A stretch of DNA of 12,293 bases from Bacillota bacterium (lineage in GTDB: Bacteria; Bacillota_E; Sulfobacillia; Sulfobacillales; Sulfobacillaceae). Position 1 is the first letter of the stretch; every line of letters begins with the position of its first letter. The stretch covers positions 1 to 12,293 of the forward strand of contig JAKADW010000021.1 in the NCBI GenBank assembly GCA_021820165.1, given 5' to 3'. Shown in pieces: positions 7,259-12,264 of the stretch. The translations under genes were made by a program, and so were the position numbers. Under the pieces are notes generated by a model. It was not told the origin of the DNA, ran no database searches, and saw nothing but the letters and a program-made list of their open reading frames with translations.

Positions 7259-7657
7259 CATAGTTTACATCGCGATAACGTGAGAGGGCAAGGACGGGGG
7301 CTTCCCTGCACGCGGCTCCTACCTGGCTTGAATGCCTGAGACGGATCCGCTGCGATATAGTTTGGTGAAAAAATCTCCGTTCTGGCCAAGGAGTGCCACC
7401 CTACGTTTCCTCGTAGAAAGATGGATGGAACCATCCGTCCGATTAAATTCCTTAGATGTGGTCGGGCGCAACGTTTTCCGCTATCCGGTGGACGAGAGGC
7501 GGCACCAGGAGGTCCTCACCGTCACGGACAATCCAGCTCGATAAGGAAGTCGTTCCTCCGTGTCGAATAGGAAGGGCTACCGAACAGAGACGGCATACGT
7601 GGCCCCGTGTTACGGTCCGATGGCATCGAACAATTCGTTCAGCAGTGGGAGGAATTA
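7259..7657. other. Gene-poor region, no supported gene
   Basis: I see no convincing gene in these 400 bases. Several short open frames exist on the plus strand, for example about 70 codons from 7332, but none has a ribosome binding site with sensible spacing, a recognisable motif or a family resemblance. Overlapping open frames in the same stretch are equally good. The most economical reading is a decayed or non-coding remnant between the FASII operon and the minus-strand cluster. A GGAGGA motif at its right end belongs to the broken frame that follows. Confidence 0.5.
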
Positions 7658-7960
7658 ATGAAAATGGATAATCCGACCTTGAAACGTCATCTTCTTAAGG
7701 AACTGATCCGGCACCACTAGGGCGCAACACCAGAAACACTTGTAGAGACAACTGCCGATGACCATCGAGGCAACATTATCGACTGGCTCAACTGGCTGAC
7801 AGTAACCGGCCACTTAAAGCGGAAAGGGGACATGTTGACGCCGGCAGATTTAAGTCGACTGCAAGCCTTGCATGACGTGGGAGAAGTACGCCGCGACTTG
7901 CCCGTCTCTTTTGCCGACCCACAGCTCCTAAACTTCTTCTATGAGGGACAGAACCGGTAA
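7658..7960 (+). pseudogene. Broken small gene of unknown function, one in-frame amber codon
   Basis: Starting at the ATG at 7658, with GGAGGA at 7648-7653 four bases upstream, one frame stays open to TAA at 7958 except for a single TAG at 7718-7720. The product would be 20 residues (MKMDNPTLKRHLLKELIRHH), the amber codon, then 79 residues beginning GATPETLVETTADD and ending NFFYEGQNR. The helix-rich first half followed by a basic TGHLKRKGD turn could be a winged-helix DNA-binding fold, but this is only a guess and I recognise no family. A single C-to-T change from CAG would restore the gene. Alternatives are a recent pseudogene, amber readthrough or a sequencing error. No ATG, GTG or TTG soon after the stop allows obvious restart. 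Confidence 0.5.
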
Positions 7961-8474: not shown

Positions 8475-11045
8475 CTAACCTTTCCCGCCTCCCGCACTAC
8501 TGCTGGACGACGACGATGACGACGAAGGTGTATTGGACGTCGAGGGCGGCGTGGTGCTGCTCGTGCTCGACGACGGGGGCGTTGTCGTTGAGCTTGAGGG
8601 CGTTGAAGAACTAGACGAACTAGACGAACTGGACGAACTGGACGAACTAGACGTGTTTGAGGACGACGGACTGCTATTTGGCGTGCACCGAGTGGTCGGC
8701 GGCCATTGAGACGCGTCCCAGGGCGTCGGCTCCGGAGCTTTCCAGTTGGGCGGGGGTACCAAGAAGACCTGCGTTATGGCAGGACCGCACCCTGGCTGCC
8801 AAAGCACCTTGGGATGGGCGGCCAACACCTTCAATTTAATATGGGTGTGGCCGGTAGTCGTCGGTTGCGTCCCATTGATGAACCAGGCGCCCTCAATCTC
8901 GTTCTTGGGCGTAAGGGCACTAGCCAGCTTGCCCGACGTGATAGAAATATTGGGCACGTAGGTCATGCCGCTCGGACGGGTGAAGTGCTTGACTGGAATG
9001 TTTTCCGCTTGGTTCACCTGTTGCATAATCTGCTTCCAAATCGGCCCTGCGGCCGTGGCACCATAGGCGAGCCCATTCGGGGTGCTCGGTTGGCGGTACT
9101 CCCCGGTTTTATTGCCTTCCCAAACGCCGACGACCATTTGCGGCTCATATCCCAGGAACCAGGCATCCCGTTCGCCGTTGTTGGTTCCTGATTTAGCACC
9201 CGCAGGCCTTCCGATGCCGAGTTGGACACCAGTTGCATAAGCGCCGGGGCCTATGCCTGGAATCTCCTTCGGATACAGCACTCGTTCCATCATTTTTTCC
9301 ATGATGTAGGCTACCTGTGGGCTAAAGATCGAAGTCCCCTGAGGTTTTTGCGAGTAGACCACAGAGCCGTTGGCGTCGACCACCTTGGATATCCAGATTT
9401 GCTTCATAAGGGTCCCCCCGTTGGGGAAAGCAGCATAAGCGCGGGTCATTTCCTGCACATTAACGCCACCCTGGGTAAATCCGCCAATGGCAATGCCCGC
9501 ACTCTGCGCGTCCACGGGCGGCAGGGTGGTAATGCCAAACTTTTGGGTAGCGAAGTTGTAGCCGGTCTGAAGGCCAATTTGCTCCAAAAGGTGGACCGAG
9601 GCATCATTGTCGGAGATGGCTAACGCATCGCGCAGGTCAATATAGCCACGATAGATGCCGTCGTCGTTCTTCGGCCACCATTGGCCATTGACTTTTTGGG
9701 TCGGCACATCATCGATCACCGACATCTGCGTATAACCATTCATGATGGCTTCCGTGTACTCCATCAGAGGCTTAATCGCCGAGCCGCTGGAACGAAGTGC
9801 CTGCTTGCTGGTCGCTAAGTCTTGGCCAAAGACGGTATTGTAGGTGCGGCCGCCAATGACAGCCCAGACGGCGCCCGTTTTCGGGTTTTCCACCATGGTC
9901 GCCGCCTGATAGACGGGGTTGGATCCGAAATTGTAATTCATCCATTTGTCCACGGCGTTTTGCGCGATGTTGTAGACTGTGGGATCCAACTCGGTGTGAA
10001 TCTTCAGCCCGCCATTATAGATTTCCTGCTGGGTAAAGCCCTTCTTCTCCAGTAGGTTAATCACGTGTTGGATGTACCACGGGTAGGGAAACGGCGAAGC
10101 CTCCCCGGTCGTGGTGATTTTTTGCGGTGAGAGATGCAAGGGCGCATCGTAATAGGTCTTGACCTGAGAGGGCTTGATGTACCCGTATTTGGCCATTGCC
10201 TGCAGGACCTCGAGTTGCCGGGTTTTGGCCGCCTTATAATTGGCGATCGGGTCGTAAAGGGAGGGCGCCTGTGGCAGACCCGCCAAGACCGCCGCTTGGG
10301 GGATGGTGAGTTGGCTCGGCTTTTCATTGAAATAGGCCTTGGAGGCCGTGGCAATACCGTAGGCGCCGTCTCCGAGATAGACTTGGTTCAAGTACATATC
10401 AAGGATCTGCTGCTTAGGGTAGCTCCGTGCCAGTTCCAGCCCCAAAATAATTTCCTGAATTTTGTACGTGATGGTGCGGTTGTCGTGCAAGTAGAGCATC
10501 TTGGCCAACTGCTCGGTAATCGTGGATGCCCCTTGCAATGACCCGCGGTGCAAAAGGTCAACATAAGCCGCGCGAAAAATAGACCGGAGGTCAAACCCGT
10601 CATTGTGCCAAAAGTTGTGGTCCTCGATGGCCACCAAGGCATTCTGCATGTTGGGAGAGACAGCTTTTAAGGGGACATCGATCCGGTTGGTAGAAAGGTG
10701 CAGGGTCGCCACCGGCTTGCCAAACCGGTCATAGATCACCGAGTCTTGCCCGGCCGTGCTCAGACTGACCAGATTGCCAACCGGAGGCATGCTATGGAGA
10801 GCCTTCAAGGTTTCCCAGCCCGCCCCAGCAATACCTAAAACGGCCACGGCCGCAATGGCAAGGCCTACAGCGCGCCCCCAACGGAACCGTCGGGGAGTTT
10901 CGCTCTTGGGCTCTTTGCTTCGGGATGCACGTTTTTGGCTGGACTCCTTCACTGGCGCCGTCGCCGACTGGGGCATTTTACGCCCGCAATGACGGCAAAA
11001 TTGGGAGCCGGCACTGTTGTCTTGACCACATCGTGGGCAACGCAA
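8475..11045 (-). CDS. Class A penicillin-binding protein with N-terminal zinc ribbon and serine-rich tail
   Basis: A bifunctional peptidoglycan synthase (856 residues): it polymerises lipid II and cross-links stem peptides on the outer face of the membrane. Order of parts: zinc ribbon with Cys3, Cys6, Cys17, Cys20; basic linker; one membrane helix at about 58-79; glycosyltransferase (GT51) domain with Glu141 in EDHNFWHNDGFD, STITEQLAK (usually STITQQ) and Glu198 before YLNQVYLG; transpeptidase domain with Ser422-x-x-Lys425, SDN at 478-480 and KSG at 618-620 (usually KTG); an extra region to about 787 holding Cys753 and Cys787, the only other cysteines; and a Ser/Thr/Pro tail from 788. The TTG start, 1 base after the upstream stop, is chosen because the in-frame stop just before it allows nothing longer than an ATT start and only this start keeps the cysteines. 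A start at Met24 would remove the ribbon. Confidence 0.95.
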   Translation of the reverse strand: MRCPRCGQDNSAGSQFCRHCGRKMPQSATAPVKESSQKRASRSKEPKSETPRRFRWGRAVGLAIAAVAVLGIAGAGWETLKALHSMPPVGNLVSLSTAGQDSVIYDRFGKPVATLHLSTNRIDVPLKAVSPNMQNALVAIEDHNFWHNDGFDLRSIFRAAYVDLLHRGSLQGASTITEQLAKMLYLHDNRTITYKIQEIILGLELARSYPKQQILDMYLNQVYLGDGAYGIATASKAYFNEKPSQLTIPQAAVLAGLPQAPSLYDPIANYKAAKTRQLEVLQAMAKYGYIKPSQVKTYYDAPLHLSPQKITTTGEASPFPYPWYIQHVINLLEKKGFTQQEIYNGGLKIHTELDPTVYNIAQNAVDKWMNYNFGSNPVYQAATMVENPKTGAVWAVIGGRTYNTVFGQDLATSKQALRSSGSAIKPLMEYTEAIMNGYTQMSVIDDVPTQKVNGQWWPKNDDGIYRGYIDLRDALAISDNDASVHLLEQIGLQTGYNFATQKFGITTLPPVDAQSAGIAIGGFTQGGVNVQEMTRAYAAFPNGGTLMKQIWISKVVDANGSVVYSQKPQGTSIFSPQVAYIMEKMMERVLYPKEIPGIGPGAYATGVQLGIGRPAGAKSGTNNGERDAWFLGYEPQMVVGVWEGNKTGEYRQPSTPNGLAYGATAAGPIWKQIMQQVNQAENIPVKHFTRPSGMTYVPNISITSGKLASALTPKNEIEGAWFINGTQPTTTGHTHIKLKVLAAHPKVLWQPGCGPAITQVFLVPPPNWKAPEPTPWDASQWPPTTRCTPNSSPSSSNTSSSSSSSSSSSSSSSSTPSSSTTTPPSSSTSSTTPPSTSNTPSSSSSSSSSSAGGGKG
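8608..8652 (-). repeat. Five 9-bp tandem repeats encoding the poly-serine tail
   Basis: On the plus strand the unit GAACTAGAC or GAACTGGAC occurs five times in direct succession (A, A, G, G, A at the variable base). Read on the minus strand each unit encodes three serines, mostly with the pattern TCY-AGT-TCG, and the block gives a run of 16 serines. A second, trinucleotide-like run (GAC/GAT/GAA) at 8506-8526 encodes the last serine block. Repeats in phase with the codons can change copy number without a frameshift, so the tail length may vary between strains. Confidence 0.85.
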
Positions 11046-11046
11046 G

Positions 11047-11553
11047 CTAATCCCTCATCTCCTCTGTCGAGCGGTCGGATGCATCATCAGACGCTATGCC
11101 AGATGGTGGCTCTTCAAGATCTTCTCGCGTCGTTTCAGGCGCCTGCGACGCCGATACCGTGAGAACCAAGCCAAACAAGATCCAGGCGAGCGCGGGCCGA
11201 ATGTCGCCGACTAAGCCCACGATGAACCCCACGGCAGCAAAGGCTAATCCCATGATCCAAAGTAGACGCTTTAGGCTTAAACGGGCCCATAGTTGGGAAT
11301 AATCGCGGGGCTCCCGCCCCTCCGAGTCGGCGTCGATGAACGGCTCATCCTCGCCCCCGTCATCTGCCCCAACCTCGGTGGGGGTTGGCCGCCGACGGCG
11401 AAAACGGCGAGGTTCCTCATCGATGGCGATAGGAGCGACCTCCGGTTCCGCCATAGGCACCTGCCGTTCGGAAACCTCCAGCAGGTTTTTACCGCAGTTC
11501 GGACAAAACACACTATCGACTGGGATGTTCTCTCCACAGCTGCGACAAAACAT
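11047..11553 (-). CDS. Zinc-ribbon membrane protein of unknown function
   Basis: I do not recognise a named family. The 168-residue product has an N-terminal zinc ribbon (Cys3, Cys6, Cys17, Cys20), then an acidic stretch, an Arg-rich patch (residues 49-55), a second acidic stretch, and two hydrophobic helices at about 96-116 and 119-136 joined by a short GDIRP turn, ending in an acidic tail. If the ribbon binds metal it must be cytoplasmic, and both termini would then be inside. GAGGAG at 11561-11566 lies 7 bases before the ATG. Its stop is 1 base before the start of the penicillin-binding protein gene, so the two are almost certainly co-transcribed and coupled. The shared cysteine layout suggests a joint cytoplasmic partner or signal, which is inference. 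Confidence 0.85.
   Translation of the reverse strand: MFCRSCGENIPVDSVFCPNCGKNLLEVSERQVPMAEPEVAPIAIDEEPRRFRRRRPTPTEVGADDGGEDEPFIDADSEGREPRDYSQLWARLSLKRLLWIMGLAFAAVGFIVGLVGDIRPALAWILFGLVLTVSASQAPETTREDLEEPPSGIASDDASDRSTEEMRD
11051..11064 (-). promoter_or_regulatory. Ribosome binding site supporting the TTG start of the PBP gene
   Basis: On the minus strand GAGGAG (11064-11059) and GAGGGA (11056-11051) lie inside the last codons of the upstream gene. The second ends 5 bases before the TTG at 11045. This supports initiation there, and so the presence of the N-terminal zinc ribbon in the penicillin-binding protein. Their position inside the upstream gene implies translational coupling. Confidence 0.65.
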
Positions 11554-11712: not shown

Positions 11713-12264
11713 TTAATAGTGACGGATTAACTGAAGGATTTGATACATGGGGATTGATTGGCTATCTTTCTGAAAAGTTACCGGGTCTACCATAATCTGA
11801 TGGGTACCGGATACCATGCGTAACCTAAGCTGCATACCGTCGGCCCCGTGGGCGACCAGCCAGGGGCTTTTAACATTGGGGTCGATGGCACTCAACACCA
11901 GCAAGTCTTGGGGAAGAATGGAAAGCATGGGTGGGCCGGAATAGCGCCAAATTAATTCGGCCGGGGCGCCGCTGGGAACGGCGAGGGTGTCGCCTTCAAA
12001 AAGCGGTTGGCCGTCCATGGTCCACTGGTCGGTGACGGGCAACCGACCATAGAGGCCTTTGGTTTCCTCCATTGTCTCCCGGGGAGGAAGATACTGCCCG
12101 TGCAGTACCGCCTTTTTAAAGGCATTGAGGCCACTATAATGGGACTTGTGCAACCAATAATAGACCGTCTTCTCTTCGGCATAGCCGAGACGCCTAGCAA
12201 TGCGGGCGGCCGTAATCAGAGGGTCTTCAAGAATGAGATTGGCAATTTGGTCGATAACCTGCAT
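11713..12264 (-). CDS. Helix-turn-helix protein with LexA/CI-like (S24) C-terminal domain lacking catalytic residues
   Basis: This 183-residue protein is probably a transcription regulator. Residues 16-42 (begins PLITAARIARRLG) look like a helix-turn-helix. Residues about 88-165 resemble the S24 fold of LexA and phage CI proteins: FEGDTLAVPSG, then ILPQDLLVLSA, then PWLVAHGADGMQLRLRM. At the place of the nucleophile motif (GDSM) the sequence is GPPM, and where the catalytic Lys is expected it has Arg or Leu, so self-cleavage is unlikely. The ATG at 12264 has AAGAAGGGCG about 13 bases upstream, a rather long spacing, and overlaps the inverted repeat at 12259-12272. It is read in the same direction as the zinc-ribbon operon, with a 159-base gap. 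Targets are unknown. The fold call is by eye. Confidence 0.6.
   Translation of the reverse strand: MQVIDQIANLILEDPLITAARIARRLGYAEEKTVYYWLHKSHYSGLNAFKKAVLHGQYLPPRETMEETKGLYGRLPVTDQWTMDGQPLFEGDTLAVPSGAPAELIWRYSGPPMLSILPQDLLVLSAIDPNVKSPWLVAHGADGMQLRLRMVSGTHQIMVDPVTFQKDSQSIPMYQILQLIRHY

Follow-up and report, generated by a model that had tools for sequence, protein, structure and literature searches.

A conserved N-terminal zinc ribbon on class A penicillin-binding proteins of Sulfobacillus-type bacteria and its possible role in protein docking

The window analysed here, a whole stretch of 12,293 nucleotides from contig JAKADW010000021.1, carries on its minus strand a gene for a class A penicillin-binding protein (PBP) that begins with a four-cysteine zinc ribbon. 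Judged by its sequence, the source organism is a Sulfobacillus-like bacterium, and in a protein database search a Sulfobacillus harzensis protein shares 88% identity with the PBP. A glycosyltransferase domain (PF00912, 200.4 bits) and a transpeptidase domain (PF00905, 60.7 bits), both above their cut-offs, lie in one chain, which is the class A layout; the NCBIfam PBP1A model TIGR02074 is not reached (498.2 bits against a cut-off of 508.75), and the protein is therefore classed as class A only. The gene, its ribosome-binding region and the parts of its product are as follows.

8475..11045, minus strand: gene for a class A (bifunctional) PBP of 856 amino acids with a TTG start (open reading frame list and Pfam)
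11055..11063, minus strand: Shine-Dalgarno-like AGGAGATGA, within the 3' end of the upstream gene (sequence inspection)
10974..11045, minus strand: N-terminal zinc ribbon, residues 1-24, presumed ligands Cys3, Cys6, Cys17 and Cys20 (PF13240, alignment and model)
10896..10973, minus strand: hypervariable, probably disordered linker, residues 25-50 (alignment and predicted local distance difference test, pLDDT)
10872..10892, minus strand: membrane-proximal basic/aromatic motif RRFRWGR, residues 52-58 (alignment A1, 30 proteins picked for carrying the ribbon)
10791..10880, minus strand: membrane helix, modelled residues 56-85 (model and hydropathy)
10194..10718, minus strand: glycosyltransferase (transglycosylase) domain, residues 110-284 (PF00912, E 2.1e-59)
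9021..9902, minus strand: transpeptidase domain, residues 382-675 (PF00905, E 1.7e-16)
8478..8666, minus strand: low-complexity C-terminal tail rich in Ser, Thr and Pro, residues 794-856 (sequence and model)

The N-terminus reads Cys3-x2-Cys6-x10-Cys17-x2-Cys20, with a methionine at residue 24 and the cysteine codons at 11039-11037, 11030-11028, 10997-10995 and 10988-10986 on the minus strand. This is the zinc-ribbon pattern that the first-pass annotation had described from the letters of the DNA, and it is more than a chance likeness, since PF13240 matches residues 3-23 with an E-value of 1.3e-6 and 28.4 bits against a gathering cut-off of 25. In the predicted structure, pLDDT is about 90 for residues 1-20. 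An alignment of 32 ribbons (A2: the window and 31 loci selected for the cysteine pattern with a spacing of 10, the start codon being read as methionine and counted as residue 1) has Arg18, Gly21 and the four cysteines invariant and Gly7, Asn10 and Leu24 kept in at least 90%. The four cysteines do not vary in A1 either, where, as in A2, the selection of rows called for them. The arginine after the third cysteine was not required by the selection patterns, yet it is present in all 32 aligned ribbons, in 39 of the 41 ribbon proteins among 120 listed PBP relatives, and in the CRxC of L036, a locus excluded from A2; in contrast, it occurs in none of eight non-PBP ribbons from four of these genomes (eight of the nine such matches). 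The cysteine codons of the window and 12 relatives are TGC or TGT, which is partly a consequence of how the rows were selected; the synonymous changes between them show this frame to have been translated over evolutionary time. The domain exists in the sequence, its start codon and frame are conserved, and it is under constraint. We infer that it holds a structural Zn2+ and faces the cytoplasm.

The ribbon belongs to the protein only if translation begins at the TTG, as the earlier reading had proposed on the strength of the ribosome-binding site and of the matching ribbon in the adjacent gene. The TAG stop of the upstream gene lies 1 nucleotide ahead of this codon, and four orthologue loci (L001-L004, which reappear in the larger locus set as L005, L006, L008 and L007) have TTG, GTG, GTG and TTG at the equivalent site, each behind a GGAG-type site. 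More widely, an NTG codon stands exactly two codons before the first cysteine in 32 of 32 distinct ribbon PBPs (18 GTG, 11 TTG and 3 ATG), a set made up of the window and 31 loci, paralogues included, that was selected by ribbon and not by start. When codon offsets from -12 to +12 were scanned, the runner-up position, -5, held an NTG in 5 of the 32. Locus L029, outside this set because the pattern missed its ribbon, likewise has GTG two codons before its first cysteine, whereas none of six non-PBP N-terminal ribbons from these genomes has an NTG there. An ATG at residue 24 is found in only three of the 32, namely the window, L007 and L028, so that Met24 is not a conserved alternative. Because the NTG at -2 is present in all 32 and in L029, we regard the ribbon-bearing TTG start as secure at the level of sequence. 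The observation named beforehand as fatal to the ribbon, orthologues that begin at Met24 or lack the cysteines, turned out the other way: at the DNA level the relatives keep both the cysteines and a start codon ahead of them.

The distribution of the ribbon marks it, on sequence comparison, as a trait of this lineage. A search with the whole PBP, which involved no selection for the ribbon, gave a best match with the full four-cysteine pattern in 27 of 31 relatives; the best matches at L048-L050 are without a ribbon, and genome G029 was left out of the inspection. The PBP of S. thermotolerans (G002) is also ribbon-bearing. Farther afield, none of 87 best PBPs inspected from the wider phylum carries a ribbon, defined as two CxxC pairs 5-25 residues apart in an open frame before the enzyme domain. 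These come from an even draw of 149 phylum genomes, in which the best PBPs of 89 genomes (G001 excluded) comprised 29 loci (L052-L080) and 60 regions; with L075 and L099 unparsed, 28 and 59 were left. A single branch separates the 31 ribbon PBPs from all other rows in a tree of 61 parsed rows, with a Shimodaira-Hasegawa-like approximate likelihood ratio test (SH-aLRT) value of 100, a result that carries a long-branch warning and was obtained after 8 of 69 rows, including the non-ribbon PBPs L012, L014, L015 and L017, had been dropped as unparsed.

Four database proteins, P0076-P0079, fall inside the ribbon clade, and the recorded proteins P0077-P0079 show no ribbon; local losses may have occurred among the four. 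Of these, P0076 has a degenerate ribbon whose fourth cysteine is missing, a possible loss. Scoring proteins as lacking the ribbon from their recorded starts, which gave nine changes on a tree of 50 of 112 usable rows, was abandoned, as the three cases checked were truncated records. A search with the ribbon only returned 2 matches among 19 candidates, the domain being so short that significance is hardly reached in that database. The combination of PF13240, PF00912 and PF00905 is already present in database records, under plain names. Among the titles and passages of listed open-licence papers on zinc ribbons or zinc together with PBPs, passages of PMC12419801 and PMC7880944 included, we found no description of a ribbon on a PBP, subscription papers lying outside the search.

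What follows the ribbon in the chain is in keeping with a domain carried on a tether. In A1 the mean majority fraction, 0.65 over residues 1-23, falls to 0.21 for residues 24-50 and rises again to 0.46 for residues 56-80 and 0.76 in the glycosyltransferase domain; the model gives pLDDT below 50 for residues 28-54. A conserved ribbon beside a variable linker is what one expects of such an arrangement. Next to the membrane, Arg52 and Arg58 are each kept in 28 of the 30 proteins, and hydropathy places the hydrophobic stretch at residues 56-80. The earlier proposal of a ribbon followed by a membrane helix is borne out, the ribbon lying ahead of a single N-terminal hydrophobic helix, and the position of the enzyme domains would put it on the cytoplasmic side. 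Ser422, Lys425, Ser478, Asn480, Lys618, Gly620, Thr621, Glu141 and Glu198 are invariant in the 30 proteins; we take these to be the SxxK serine and lysine, the SxN serine and asparagine, the KTG-type triad and the glycosyltransferase glutamates, respectively. As these active-site residues are invariant, the ribbon probably sits on a working synthase. A separate feature of the wider family is that 14 of the 120 listed PBP relatives (within P0080-P0100) carry a precomputed PF13473 (Cupredoxin_1) match beside the PBP domains, an unexpected partner for a cell-wall synthase.

The ribbon is not confined to one PBP per genome. S. harzensis has three ribbon-bearing class A PBPs (L005, L009 and L013), next to a fourth class A PBP (L017) and a monofunctional glycosyltransferase (L020) without it; L009 and L013, at 18.8 and 23.5 bits, do not reach the PF13240 cut-off yet have the four cysteines, and L036 scores 25.0. 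Nor is it confined to PBPs, for the seven PF13240 matches in S. harzensis at E <= 0.001 are the three class A PBPs, the gene adjacent to the PBP, and L145, L146 and L147. Each of the last three has one hydrophobic stretch after the ribbon; L145 and L147 have no other Pfam domain at E <= 0.01. The trypsin-like protein L146:632-1684 (PF13365) has the same layout of ribbon, linker and hydrophobic segment as the PBP. In other scanned genomes, L143 and L148 also show a ribbon followed by a hydrophobic stretch, L142 has no stretch above the threshold, and two small proteins, L141 and L144, have their ribbon at the C-terminus. A ribbon followed by a membrane segment is thus a habit of the lineage.

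A further ribbon is encoded directly upstream of the PBP.

11047..11553, minus strand: co-oriented upstream gene for a protein of 168 amino acids with zinc ribbon, linker and hydrophobic region (open reading frame list, PF13240 and hydropathy)
11482..11550, minus strand: zinc ribbon of the upstream protein, residues 2-24 (PF13240, 28.5 bits)

The hydrophobic region of this protein covers residues 94-136, by eye in two segments, and all 33 protein relatives found for it carry PF13240. The ribbon next door, which the first-pass annotation had called a match to that of the PBP, is real as a domain, but it is neither the same in sequence nor a constant companion: the adjacent-gene ribbons read FCPxCG (18 of 18, with no arginine) against FCRxCG in the PBPs, and of 28 parsed rows, the window included, 18 have a ribbon gene ahead of the ribbon PBP and the other 10 have none (L036 was not parsed in this count). 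Where it is present, the gap to the PBP is 1 nucleotide in 15 rows and 31, 31 and 38 nucleotides in L008, L033 and L038. Of 31 genomes, 18 contain a homologue of the adjacent gene (E <= 0.001), in some recognised through the ribbon alone; nine of the 13 genomes without one at that threshold have a ribbon PBP, and the paralogues L009, L010, L011 and L013 have no ribbon gene upstream. The adjacent gene as an obligatory partner is therefore rejected as a rule, on the 10 rows and 13 genomes that lack it; where it is encoded, its product is one candidate partner.

Known systems offer a precedent for what such a domain might do. Like the PBP of the window, Bacillus subtilis PBP1 and Listeria monocytogenes PBPA1 have a cytoplasmic N-terminus, one membrane helix, a glycosyltransferase and a transpeptidase. 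According to PMC6335420, GpsB binds the cytoplasmic mini-domains of these two proteins through SRxxR(R/K) or TRxxYR; in a few Firmicutes, class A PBPs are known to be controlled from the cytoplasmic side through such short peptide tails (PMC6335420). The motifs taken from that paper, SRxxR(R/K), TRxxYR and (S/R)RS(R/G)(K/S)xR, occur before the membrane helix in none of 33 ribbon PBPs. PF05103 lies above its cut-off in six of seven genomes, with a single strong match per genome and, in G022, an additional weaker one; the frames, of 160-337 amino acids, look more like DivIVA, but GpsB and DivIVA belong to one and the same family. A GpsB-type tail is rejected on the motif count, 0 of 33, the PF05103 matches having more of the look of DivIVA.

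The fold itself has wider company. The PBP ribbon has the spacing CxxC-x3-N-x6-CxxC, with Asn10 kept in at least 90%, which is the motif of the RanBP2/NZF family of zinc fingers (Nup153, Nup358, Trabid and HOIL-1L); it lacks the tryptophan that those fingers have ahead of the first cysteine. Fingers of Nup153 and Nup358, from structure entries that by their titles are complexes with Ran-GDP, overlay the modelled ribbon at 0.8-1.1 A over 25 residues, with a best Foldseek E-value of 0.68, too weak for homology. Among bacterial proteins, Staphylococcus aureus TcaA and B. subtilis YvbJ are membrane proteins with an N-terminal ribbon; to our knowledge neither is a cell-wall polymerase, and their exported parts are unrelated to that of the PBP. 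The NCBIfam TcaA model matches residues 2-45 of the PBP far below threshold (15.3 bits against a cut-off of 550), and one homologue of the adjacent gene bears the name YvbJ in a source. TcaA is termed a zinc ribbon domain-containing protein in PMC10611510.

We propose that in the ancestor of Sulfobacillus-type bacteria a C4 zinc ribbon was fixed at the N-terminus of a class A PBP, and that it survived duplication of the PBP gene. In the cytoplasm it would fold about a structural Zn2+ and serve as a protein-docking module. Docking would use a PBP-specific face that includes Arg18, and a partner in the cytoplasm or the membrane would thereby place or switch the synthase. The role would parallel that of the short tails by which other Firmicutes PBPs bind GpsB, a folded domain taking the place of the linear motif; the precedent is that GpsB is reported to bind cytoplasmic PBP mini-domains (PMC6335420). 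A scaffold or some other partner for the ribbon is plausible, and the small membrane ribbon protein encoded upstream could be one where it exists. The four-cysteine pattern in 27 of 31 relatives, the conserved ribbon beside its variable linker, the PBP-specific arginine and the overlay with fingers seen in complexes with Ran-GDP speak for this account. We consider a structural, docking ribbon fixed in that ancestor to be the likeliest reading, with an even chance of being right.

Other explanations compete with this one. The ribbon might be a general-purpose N-terminal cap, common to exported proteins with a membrane anchor in this lineage, that stabilises the nascent N-terminus, fixes an N-in topology or aids targeting, with no partner specific to the PBP. 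The main argument for such a cap is the lineage habit described above, as L145, L146 and L147 each place one hydrophobic stretch after the ribbon. Set against this are the invariant Arg18 and the NTG at -2 that the PBP ribbons have as their own and that the non-PBP ribbons lack, and the class A PBP L017 and monofunctional L020, which do without a ribbon in the same genome; we see the cap as possible but rather unlikely. A narrower variant overlaps with docking as a special case of it: the ribbon would bind the ribbon or tail of the 168-amino-acid membrane protein, which would act as a dedicated, MacP-like cofactor. MacP, a small membrane protein in which we know of no zinc ribbon, is a model for the adjacent gene by description only, without sequence comparison. 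It activates the class A PBP2a of Streptococcus pneumoniae, according to PMC10746261. The immediate upstream position in 18 of 28 rows speaks for such a pair, but the rows, genomes and paralogues in which a ribbon PBP stands without that gene make it improbable as the general explanation.

The remaining two readings fare worse. A metal or redox sensor, in which zinc loss or cysteine oxidation alters PBP activity and so couples wall synthesis to metal or redox state, would suit a cytoplasmic tail with four presumed thiolate ligands in hosts known to inhabit acidic, metal-rich places. However, C4 ribbons of the CxxC/CxxC kind usually hold their zinc tightly and structurally, and the four cysteines are found on all three ribbon PBPs of S. 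harzensis. The coupling to metal or redox state suggested at first gained no supporting evidence, no search for metal-regulation genes having been made, and we think a sensor very unlikely. The last reading, that translation really begins at Met24 or beyond and leaves the ribbon untranslated, an artefact, can point to database records that begin such proteins downstream of the ribbon, for example P0002, P0009 and P0037. Yet the recorded start of P0002 falls within the membrane helix, and P0073, P0011 and P0037, compared by eye over the N-terminal residues shown, match loci L013, L029 and L036, which have an intact in-frame ribbon upstream; the NCBI record of the S. harzensis protein (P0001) already contains it. 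A start at Met24 or later is ruled out by the NTG at -2, the kept cysteines and the want of a conserved later methionine, and we give an artefact almost no credence. Recorded starts have nevertheless removed the ribbon from some database entries, which calls for caution in their use.

One may speculate further, with considerable doubt, that in one bacterial class the main class A PBPs have exchanged their linear cytoplasmic docking tail for a folded zinc ribbon. A ribbon-based partner system in the cytoplasm or the membrane, to which the small ribbon protein encoded alongside would belong in some species, would then place or switch several synthases at once. Three PBPs of a single genome carry this folded, conserved domain, in contrast to the short peptide tails known elsewhere. 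The ribbon offers a clean handle on the control of wall synthesis in the Sulfobacillus-type group, through Cys-to-Ser changes, Arg18 or deletion of the domain.

No tRNAs and no RNA families at gathering score were found in the window. Between 7210 and 8474 gene content was judged from the open reading frame list only, and a plus-strand stretch at 7630-7960, lying upstream of the 3' end of the PBP gene, looks by eye like a short open reading frame broken by an in-frame TAG and is perhaps a decayed gene. Upstream of the two ribbon genes, 11713-12264 on the minus strand holds an open reading frame of 183 amino acids with weak matches to PF06056 and PF01498, both below cut-off.
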